Source: Xestospongia muta (lineage: Eukaryota > Porifera > Demospongiae > Haplosclerida > Petrosiidae). Taken from it: a stretch of 64,000 nt of DNA. The stretch covers positions 8,592,954 through 8,656,953 of the forward strand of contig OY848920.1 in the NCBI GenBank assembly GCA_963693285.1, read 5' to 3'. Made by a program: the position numbers and the translations under genes. The notes below the pieces were generated by a model. That model searched no databases and was not told the origin of the DNA. It saw only the letters and a program-made list of their open reading frames with translations. Below are positions 37,497 to 42,005 of the stretch, piece by piece. Numbering within the stretch: position 1 is the first letter of the stretch; each line of letters begins with the position of its first letter.

Positions 37497-40400
37497 CTAA
37501 TCTAATTTCAAGCCAACTTTATGCATAACTTCTAGTGGAGGATCCTGCCCCCATCCACTAAAAAGAACTCTACCATAATAAGCAACATTTACTATTCCCT
37601 TGTCAACCTGTTGTTTGAATTCATCCACTTTATCTTCATCAACCTGCACATATTGCCATTTTCTACTACGAACTAAGTAGACTAGATTACTTTTAGGAAA
37701 CACACGATCCTCCCAGGTAGTTTTACAATATAGGTCAACTTCACATGGTTCCTTCATTTCCATGCTACAACGAATTTGTCGAAAATCACCCAACTTCGTA
37801 TTTTGTCCTGATGTGAGCTCTGTGTTGAATTCTGTCACAACGGATTTTTGATCTTCATCAAATCGAATAGCTTCATTAACATAACATAATGCAGTCGCTT
37901 CTTCTTTAATATCACATGAACACCATACATTGAGTAATACTCCTGCTTCCCTTGTGTGATGTCCACAAGATAAGATGTGGAGATCATCTAGAGTTTTGGC
38001 ACAATCTTTGATCCAGTTACCAGAGTAACTACAATCAGAATTTATTGTGAGTAGTTTTCCTTTGAAGTTGTCCATGTATAGCTTAAAGATATCCTGAAAG
38101 GTGACAACTCCATTTTTAAAACACCAGTTACCAGTGCCTATCTCTCCATGACCAGTGTAAAAAATAAGAGCTAAGTAAGTAATATGAAGTGTTAAGATAT
38201 TATATATGCACATGTTTCTCTTACCTTTGCCACTTTCACAGTTATTTAAAAATTTCTTGATTTCCTTCAAATAGTAATCTTTGGAGTGTTGTTCATCATT
38301 TCCTGGAAGCTCTGAATATACTGACACGTCTTCACAGTAGTGAGATTTTTTATGCTTCTCCCTAATTTGGTCAATTTCTATTTTCATCCATTCGTTAGAT
38401 CCTTTTTGATCATTGGGTGTACTTTTACGACCAACAAGAATAGAATTGGACACTTCTCCAAATGAACCAATGATCAGAAGCTTATATTTTATAGGAGGGA
38501 GATATCGGCTTTCTTGTCTTGTCTCTATAGTAAGAGAGTGGTTATAGTGAGTAAGAGTAATATCTAATGCATCTATTGTAACAAAGAGGGACATTGCACG
38601 CACATATGACACTTATGCAGACTATATACAGTCAGATAAATAGTTTCACTAAGAATTAAGGAAGTTTAAAGTGGAATAGGATCGGACATTCATGACCATA
38701 CTTCTGTTAATAAAATTAACTGTGTATGAATGAAATTAAACATTTCCTTGTTCCAATGTGCATTCCTCATTAGCAGACTATATGCTCCTGATATAGTGAA
38801 TTTACAGTATCCATTTATTTTCTGATAATGTAAATTATGTAGCAGTACCTTCAGTAGACTCTATTGCCATGGCTCCATCATCTATTACTGGTGCACCTTG
38901 TTGTTGAGGAGCTACAAAATGAAAATGCTGTACTTAAAATATATGTAACTTATATAATTACTTGATTATTTATATCTGTTATATATTAGCATATTTATCA
39001 CATAATGCACTGCAAGACATAACTAAGATGTTAAGTTTTATCTCAACCTCTCCTGTCATTTGTCTTTATAAATAAATAAACTTTGTCTGGCAGAGCCAGT
39101 CCATTTAAGGAGAAAGCACTGGATATTCAAGACTAAACTAAACCCACAATGCTATGGCTAACTGACAGTTTTGCTTCTACTTGCTATCCACTCAAATATC
39201 TTTTAAGCTCTGCTTTAATTCCTCATTCTGTTTGTCTTTCTCTCTTAGTTGTAATTCCAATGACATGATCATCTCTTATAGTTTTTCTATTTCATTATTA
39301 AAGTATTTGCTAAACAACTAATTATAATTAACATAATATACATTAATGAATAAGGAGGATATACAAATTATAATAATAGACAGCTATTGGTGGTTATTCA
39401 ATACATTAGAAATACCTTCATTGTCCATGGTCTTCTTTCTACTGATGGTTTGTTGTGCTTCCAGTTGACTTCTCAACTCCTTTGTGTTCTCTTCTACAAT
39501 AGCTGTAATCTCCTATATATCAATAAACAACACATGTAGTAACTGTTGTCTAATACTACTCATCTCTTACCTTGTCTCTTCTATGATCATAAATGGTACA
39601 ATATCCAACTGTAAGTTGAAGTAATCCTTTCTTCTTCAATTCTTCAAGTGTCTCCTGAACTCTGGCAATAATTGACATGGTTAGACTGAGTGGAAAAAAA
39701 CAGGTGACAATGATAGAGTTGCCCTCTCTAATGACACGAATCTGTACATTCTCCTCAACTGACTCAGCAATAATATCTCGTATATCTTGTAATGTGTAGT
39801 TGGTAGGGTCCCAGTCTAAGAGAAAGTTGGCTGTCTCACATTTGAGAAGAGGATGACTTTTATTTTCTTTGAAGGTTTCGTTCAAACAAAGACAAGCTTT
39901 TGTTTCCATACAAAATGACTGAACAACATTTTTGTACGTCTGTATATGTGTCTGTGCTTCTTTGATATCATATCGTTCCACAATACCCTCCAGACAACTA
40001 ATATCAATCAATGTACAATGATCACGTACAACATTTAAGACATCATTAATGGACCTTGAATGAGTTATTTCAGTTTTGAGGTGAGGATAACTATCAGCAA
40101 AAAAGCACTTCAATTCATCCAAAGGTGGAGGACTTTTATTAATTGCTTCTCGGACTTTGTTGAAGGCTATTCCAAATTTTTTTCGGATTGACCCAAATGT
40201 AGAGCCTAACTTTCGAGGAATAGGAATAGGTTTTAAGGCTTTATCTATATATTAAAATAATTTAAATAGAGGTTAAATCTCTCCCAGTACTTACCTAATG
40301 TTTGACTCCCTTTATTATTTCTAGTATATTCTACTTGTATGTCATAGTCAGGAAATGCTTTACCTATTAAAATAGACATATAACAAAAGTAAATTCTATG

Positions 40401-42005
40401 CCAGTACTCACGACAATCCTGTATGATAGCCTTAGCACATGGTACATTGCTAGTATGTTTTAACAGTATACTAGCAAAGACCTCCAGATTATGATAGTTG
40501 GTATGTACTGCATGACGTACAGCTTGTAACAGGACAAATAATGCTTTTCTTGTTGATGGAGATTTGGCAGTATATTTTATTATTTCTAGTCTAGTTTTTG
40601 TAATAACTCTCTCTCCATAGAGATACTGTGCTACTCTAACAGGATGTCGGAGAAACTGAGAGAGAGTACCATAATGACAACGTAAAATGTCACTGGCTTG
40701 ATCTTCACAAAAACTATGACTTGTCATTGCTATCTCTTGAACAGTACTTGATGTTGTCTGGTCATCTGAAAATGTTTGACCTATTAACAATAAATATTAA
40801 TTATAAAATAAATTATTTAGTTGTTCTCTCACCATATTCACTGATAATTCTCTCAGACAGTGTTTTCATCTCTTTAAACTTGGACAATACTGTTGCTAAC
40901 ACTTTCAATTTCATGTGATCTGAAGATATTGCTGTATGTATAGCAGATAACAGAGTTGTCTTCTTCTCATCTTGGGAGCCTTGCAATGACTCCATCTTAT
41001 CAAGTGTTTCTTCACTGACACATCTCTCACTATATAAGAGCTGGGACACTTTTACAGGATTGATCAGACACTGTGACATCTCTCCAATAAAACAATGGAG
41101 AGTATCTTCCTTCACTAAGGAACAAACACATATTCACTGACTCCATCAATAAATGTTATATCAACTTACCTTTAGTTAAATGTTGATGTATTTCATTAGC
41201 TTTCTTGATATGTTTAACAATAGGACCCTTGATGGCAGAAATTACTGTTTCCCAGGTAACAAGATCTAACTCAGTAGTAGTTAACAAGCTATGAATGACT
41301 TGATCAAGTTTGATAGCATCACTCTCTTGGCTACGTTTTAAACCATCCAAAATATTGTGAGGAACATTGAGACTTGAGCCAATCTCATACCACAAGTTAC
41401 TAATATCAGCTAATAGATTGAGTAGTTCATGTTGAGTGGGAACCTTCTTCAAAAGATCTGAAATATCTAAATGAAGTAAGACATTAAAAGGAACAACAAT
41501 TTCTTATAACTTACCTAGTAGTTGAGTTTGAGGCAGTATGTGTGTATGGGATTGAAGAATAGGACTTGTTCCTGTACCTGAGGTATCCATTCCTATAATA
41601 AGAACAGTACACAATCCATTAAAAAAACTAGTAATAAACATTTATAACTAAATGTACATGTAAAAGGTTCTTGTACTCACTAGTAGAAAGACTATTAGAT
41701 TTCCACAATGTCTGTTCATACTCATGGGCAACAGTGATTTCTTCGATGACTTCCTTCCTCAAAGCATCTACCACTTGTCTTCTGGTAGCATCAGGTTTGG
41801 TATCTAACCACAACTCAAACATTTTTGTTGTTTTGTATGTGGAGTCATCTGGTAGCTTGTGAATATCTTCCAACTTCTTAGCATTCAGTTTCAGCTGAAT
41901 TCCCAACTGATACCATTTACTACCAATACGAATATGTTCACATAATTCATCAAGTGTTGGTTTCTCTTCTAGAATCTCCTCGAAAGGTAGGTTTCTTGAA
42001 GCCAT
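37497..42005 (-). CDS. G4: Death-Death-CARD-CARD-caspase-like fusion protein (1072 aa)
   Basis: Exons: 41681-42005, 41515-41592, 41170-41457, 40833-41114, 40412-40780, 40295-40363, 39571-40244, 39416-39512, 38849-38911, 38225-38524, 37497-38170. They total 3219 nt in one open frame. Approximate residues: Death 10-95, second Death 135-230, CARD-like 231-324 and 325-447, conserved domain 471-695, coiled coil 696-727, linker 728-748, caspase-like domain 749-1072. That domain has YTGHG (His about 856) and SDCSYSG (Cys about 895), matching the His and Cys motifs of caspase-fold (C14, clan CD) peptidases. DCSYSG is close to the metacaspase DCCHSG form. Junctions into the protease exons are phase 1 and in frame. 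Likely a death-fold-controlled protease; activity and substrate are inferred, not shown. Confidence 0.82.
39180..39310 (-). pseudogene. Decayed coiled-coil exon inside G4
   Basis: This matches the coiled-coil exon at 10309-10446 but contains a TAA and has no donor at the expected place. The G4 frame skips it, passing from 39416 directly to 38911. G4 therefore has a shorter stalk than its LRR relatives. Confidence 0.65.

Follow-up and report, generated by a model that had tools for sequence, protein, structure and literature searches.

A predicted Death/CARD-like gene of the sponge Xestospongia muta ends in a serine-type caspase-like domain

Animal cell-death signalling centres on death-fold proteins with a C-terminal caspase-like domain. 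In a 64,000-nucleotide stretch of the Xestospongia muta genome (contig OY848920.1; here the window), a minus-strand gene was predicted to join two Death domains, two CARD-like modules and a TRADD-N-like linker to a caspase-like domain. This domain is likely a dead enzyme because a serine occupies the position of the nucleophile cysteine, and we consider it probable (about 60%) that the 1075-residue product is an adaptor whose dead caspase fold works as a scaffold or decoy. If so, an early-branching animal lineage outside the vertebrates would have massively expanded decoy or scaffold caspases and kept them under selection, and the serine and cysteine relatives of one domain that occur side by side would form a natural test.

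Register and conservation of the active site

The motifs of the caspase-like domain lie in the last exon (exon 11): YTGHG (H859), DCSYSG (C898, S899) and CGH at 920-922. In metacaspases and legumains the nucleophile stands three residues before the G of C-x-S-G, and the residue three before the G in D-C-S-Y-S-G is S899. The register was fixed by two relatives, P0132 (SDCCSAGKW) and P0135 (SDCCFAGKW), both with YSGHGE, because their cysteines align with S899 of the window protein. At this position serine was found in 170 of 174 aligned rows, asparagine in two and cysteine in two, the rows being non-independent metagenome records that may include several copies of one species.

The sequence-only reading had proposed a cell-death enzyme with YTGHG at about residue 856, where it indeed begins, and SDCSYSG at about 895. 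The latter motif is present, at 896, and the C895 of that reading is C898 in the present numbering. The claim of an enzyme was not supported, since the cysteine of SDCSYSG is off the nucleophile position and serine stands there instead. C898 precedes that position, and the proposed C895A mutant would thus probe the wrong residue. That the protein is nevertheless an active, self-contained protease with C898 as nucleophile is improbable: the predicted caspase fold, the retained histidine and the invariance of C898 (174/174 rows) favor it, but C898 is one residue short of the cysteine position in P0132 and P0135, a register that speaks against it as the nucleophile, and rows without the histidine still keep C898 and the remaining motif.

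At the histidine column, the 143 rows available read H 119, N 15, D 6, and R, L and Y once each, with H in the window protein. The dyad histidine was missing in 24 of the 143, where S (or N), C898 and the rest of the motif were kept, and it ranked 73rd of 235 columns by conservation. On a tree of 140 of the 178 aligned rows (both motif columns present, at least 180 letters), the histidine-less rows needed 12 changes, at least 10 of them forced by supported branches, and the two cysteine rows grouped with the serine row P0129.

Activity from a rebuilt site would call for S899 with H859, or for another pair drawn from C898, C920 and H922. Such a hydrolase is consistent with the near-fixed serine, with invariant C898, C920, G921 and H922, and with purifying selection, but H859 has been lost from the 24 rows while S (or N) stays, and a structural role or metal binding could explain the invariant Cys and His; we regard it as doubtful. 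Equally tentative is the wider proposal that sponges rebuilt the caspase site: in a family with at least 35 near-complete copies in this genome, serine would have replaced the nucleophile cysteine while the four new invariant residues became fixed, yielding a serine hydrolase, a hydrolase with a relocated cysteine, or an arsenal of decoys. The module would then serve as an interchangeable effector that is transferred onto Death/CARD receptors.

Across the caspase-like family, CGH 920-922 and the cysteines at 937, 986 and 994 were invariant or nearly so. To our knowledge, CGH and these further cysteines are absent from known motifs; a metal site or disulfides are possible.

Selection and the pseudo-caspase reading

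The ratio of nonsynonymous to synonymous substitution (dN/dS) of the caspase-like domain was 0.23-0.55 against 30 copies, with some dS values above 1, and by these ratios the domain is under purifying selection. All 31 serine codons at the nucleophile position were AGC or AGT, each a single substitution away from cysteine. Among the matches listed, 35 of 93 genome matches to the last domain covered exon 11 nearly whole. A pseudogene is disfavored by the open frame and the dN/dS range, though 4 of those 35 near-complete copies held stop codons.

The simplest interpretation is that the caspase fold has been maintained but does not cut (pseudo-caspase); a scaffold or decoy role is proposed by analogy with c-FLIP. 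On a signal, the death-fold modules would come together with other Death/CARD proteins; the caspase-like domain would then bind caspases or their partners without cutting, like c-FLIP, and the C-terminus would thereby set what the complex recruits.

Several points weigh against this reading. A pure scaffold would need neither the histidine nor the intact motif around it, yet the window protein keeps both, and serine can in principle act as a nucleophile. Because cysteine is present in two close relatives, activity may be lost and regained within the family. The register of the nucleophile rests on those two cysteine relatives and on motif spacing. An hhalign comparison with seven sponge caspases aligned only the HG motif region and did not reach the nucleophile (probability 0.3%); those seven frames had been picked for an [AS]C[RQK]G motif, which one of eight loci did not yield, and are not an independent control.

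Fold and family membership

Structure prediction returned a caspase fold for the domain encoded by exons 10-11, as the sequence-only reading had proposed for the C-terminus. Intron 10 was kept as coding in this prediction, and model residues 100-115, its read-through, were the sole inner stretch with a predicted local distance difference test (pLDDT) score below 50. Foldseek rows for the domain included Raptor (8rcn_Y, 4.6e-5).

Profile matches to known families were sparse. Pfam PF00656 (C14) had no match in the window protein, and the window was absent from the 106 matches in the genome; PF00656 was found at E <= 1 in 20 of 74 family members, and P0107 and P0135 reached 22.1 and 21.6 bits against a cut-off of 21.4. 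With regard to C14 membership, the histidine of the HG motif is present (H859) and S899 stands in place of the catalytic cysteine. Raptor_N had no Pfam match in the window protein and appeared at E <= 1 in 4 of 74 family members (best E 8.5e-4; best relative 19.6 bits against a cut-off of 27). PDB sequence searches with the caspase-like domain gave no informative match, and one scan of genome contigs for prokaryotic relatives yielded 23 stretches that fitted the patterns, of which none was confirmed. Among the literature matches listed for pseudo-caspases in sponges, no paper treated this caspase-like family, and literature searches on Raptor returned no paper.

Exon chain

The exon model, built from the sequence, runs on the minus strand from an ATG at 42005 to a stop that ends at 37497. 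Its 11 exons are separated by ten introns, all GT...AG and with consistent phases, and give an open reading of 1075 codons plus stop; the splicing of the chain is predicted. The earlier reading was right that the chain is open, but its length of 1072 codons was not reproduced. The features are as follows.

Exon 1, 41681..42005, minus strand: start codon and Death domain 1, residues 1-108 (Pfam Death, exon model)
Exon 2, 41515..41592, minus strand: short connector, residues 109-134 (exon model); no second copy within the window
Exon 3, 41170..41466, minus strand: Death domain 2, residues 135-233 (alignment with Death 1, FADD profile matches)
Exon 4, 40833..41114, minus strand: CARD-like module 1, residues 234-327 (aligns with exon 5; CARD below threshold)
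Exon 5, 40412..40780, minus strand: CARD-like module 2, residues 328-450 (Pfam CARD E 0.088, under the cut-off)
Exon 6, 40295..40363, minus strand: connector, residues 451-473; copies at 54954-55019 and 29020-29049
Exon 7, 39571..40244, minus strand: linker domain, TRADD-N-like, residues 474-698 (predicted structure)
Exon 8, 39416..39512, minus strand: connector, residues 699-730
Exon 9, 38849..38911, minus strand: QQQ-containing connector, residues 731-751; single copy in the window and the loci searched
Exon 10, 38225..38524, minus strand: first part of the caspase-like domain, residues 752-851; 51-52% identity with the copies on contigs C14 and C9
Intron 10, 38171..38224, minus strand: 54 bases, GT/AG, open in frame
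Exon 11, 37497..38170, minus strand: rest of the caspase-like domain, C-terminal extension and stop, residues 852-1075

In the window's tandem genes, copies of exon 8 come after the linker; others occur in loci L011, L013, L015, L020, L023 and L026. By eye, exon 9 is similar to AQQQQSQLS, with which the caspase-like module on contigs C9 and C14 begins.

Death-fold modules and linker

Death 1 was the only domain that a Pfam scan of the whole chain recognised (Death, residues 17-84, E 5.4e-7, 30.1 bits against a cut-off of 22.6; E 1.3e-7 with exon 1 alone). Death 2 had no Pfam Death match of its own; it was alignable with Death 1 copies at 22-24% identity, and a joint seven-row Death profile matched FADD death domains in the PDB (best E 1.2e-4). 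The CARD-like modules align with each other at 26-31% identity. Module 2 reached 13.3 bits against a CARD cut-off of 23.9, CARD was found at E <= 1 in 3 of 10 copies of these modules, and the best row of a PDB profile search was RAIDD (E 0.49). Of the two Death and two CARD-like modules originally described, Death 1 was borne out by Pfam and Death 2 by alignment and the FADD profile; the CARD-like pair aligns and its assignment stays below threshold. No death effector domain (DED) was matched at E <= 1 in the chain by Pfam.

The linker was predicted to form six helices and a half resembling a ferredoxin or RNA recognition motif (RRM) fold; TRADD-N had no Pfam match in the window protein. Death-like modules lie N-terminal to the linker, as in the NCOA6-clade TRADD-N family, the CARD-like modules being the weaker.

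Relatives of the chain and origin of the join

One protein search matched 106 proteins, another listing covered the best 120 of 216, and all relatives that carried an organism name were from Amphimedon queenslandica (P0093, P0107-P0112). Residues 359-702 (CARD-like module 2 and linker) were collinear with residues 18-366 of A. queenslandica P0108 (40.4 bits). A CARD-like module, linker and caspase-like domain occur within single A. queenslandica proteins (P0107-P0110) and in P0120 (JGI protein, 761 residues), and P0111 of A. queenslandica combines the linker and caspase-like domain. In the same genome as the window, one gene examined on contig C9 runs in order from a CARD-like module through the full linker to both caspase-like exons; one on contig C14 likewise has a CARD-like module and both caspase-like exons, but its linker is present only as the first half. 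Together with the exon model, the collinear relatives support the fusion order first read from the sequence. In P0107 (A0A1X7TK74), which may be a gene-model merger, a broken caspase-like domain and an intact one stand in tandem ahead of tetratricopeptide repeats (TPR_1 E 1.9e-13).

It is unlikely that the locus is divided into a Death/CARD/linker gene that stops near exon 8 and a separate caspase-like gene whose start (ATG near 38594) lies within or just before exon 10. A 371-codon stop-to-stop frame spans exons 10-11, exon 9 is without a copy in the loci searched, and the linker and caspase-like exons differ in their closest relatives, all of which would suit such a division. However, P0107-P0111 and P0120 hold linker and caspase-like domain in one protein, and the intron phases agree. 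By eye, similarity to P0001 starts at ETRQES, at the predicted acceptor; the preceding stretch differs and the ATG is not conserved. A separate gene starting near 38594 is disfavored by this comparison and by the single-protein relatives.

The window linker was 77-91% identical to several C4 copies and about 27-30% identical to the C9 and C14 copies; exon 11 was 59-67% identical to the C9 and C14 copies. Because the linker goes with the C4 copies and exon 11 resembles those on C9 and C14, we infer a transfer of the caspase-like module onto a gene of the Death-Death-CARD-CARD type. By eye, no other C4-type linker lay closely 5' of a whole caspase-like exon among the matches listed. Two 60-residue end fragments (88% identity) were found downstream of other C4 copies, at window 16312-16491 and at C4:8528013-8528192. 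The C-terminal domain varies among the paralogues: it is caspase-like here, and a leucine-rich repeat (LRR) exon at 49845-50654 lies downstream of a sister copy, linked to it by position. With leucine-rich repeats after the same N-terminal unit in sister genes, the caspase-like domain would be one of several exchangeable C-terminal modules.

The fragment at 16312-16491 (minus strand) corresponds to the last part of exon 11 and lacks all other parts of the domain. It is likely a decaying remnant of a duplication, because its dN (0.058) exceeds its dS (0.029).

Other features of the window

On the plus strand, a Pkinase exon (33155-33556, E 4.9e-19) is followed at 33852-36112 by three UCH pieces (E 4.3e-6, 4.4e-5 and 1.3e-3), possibly a kinase-deubiquitinase fusion (33155-36112). 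An inverted repeat at 22235-22736 and 23410-23911 has 502-base arms, 98% complementary, around a spacer of 673 bases; one arm holds a 115-codon frame with no Pfam match. In several frames, a long simple-repeat tract at 34878-35257 translates into Ser-Leu or Arg-Glu repeats.

Comparison with known systems

The long form of mammalian c-FLIP consists of a death-fold pair (two DEDs) followed by a caspase domain that binds caspases or their partners without cutting. That caspase domain is described as inactive. The window gene differs in its Death, Death, CARD-like, CARD-like, TRADD-N-like order; its nucleophile position holds serine, and the histidine is kept. MALT1 paracaspase and initiator caspases likewise pair a death-fold prodomain with a caspase fold, but they have a catalytic cysteine and fewer death-fold modules, whereas the window gene has a serine site and more of them. 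The N-terminal caspase-like domain of Raptor has a DCS motif; the likeness lies in the Foldseek rows and in Raptor_N matches of a few relatives, and the architecture differs.

As described in the source, the trypanosome pseudo-metacaspases TbMC1 (HS) and TbMC4 (YS) have a caspase-fold p20 in which serine replaces the catalytic cysteine (PMC6426788). They share the serine-for-cysteine caspase fold with the window protein, TbMC1 being the HS-type precedent, but they belong to another lineage and are without death-fold modules, and the window family has its own CGH and later cysteines.

In the text of a 2021 paper, the NCOA6-clade TRADD-N proteins of Amphimedon, a huge lineage-specific expansion, have one to three Death-like domains, TRADD-N and a variable C-terminus (LRR, kinase or caspase) (PMC8195603). 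The window gene is alike in its order of Death-like modules, TRADD-N-like linker and variable C-terminus, and differs from that description in its four death-fold modules and serine-type caspase-like domain. The general architecture had therefore been described before, and the sequence-only reading of an undescribed protein holds only in part; set against the text descriptions in PMC8195603, the apparent novelty lies in the expansion of a serine-type caspase-like family and in its fusion to a Death-Death-CARD-CARD gene.
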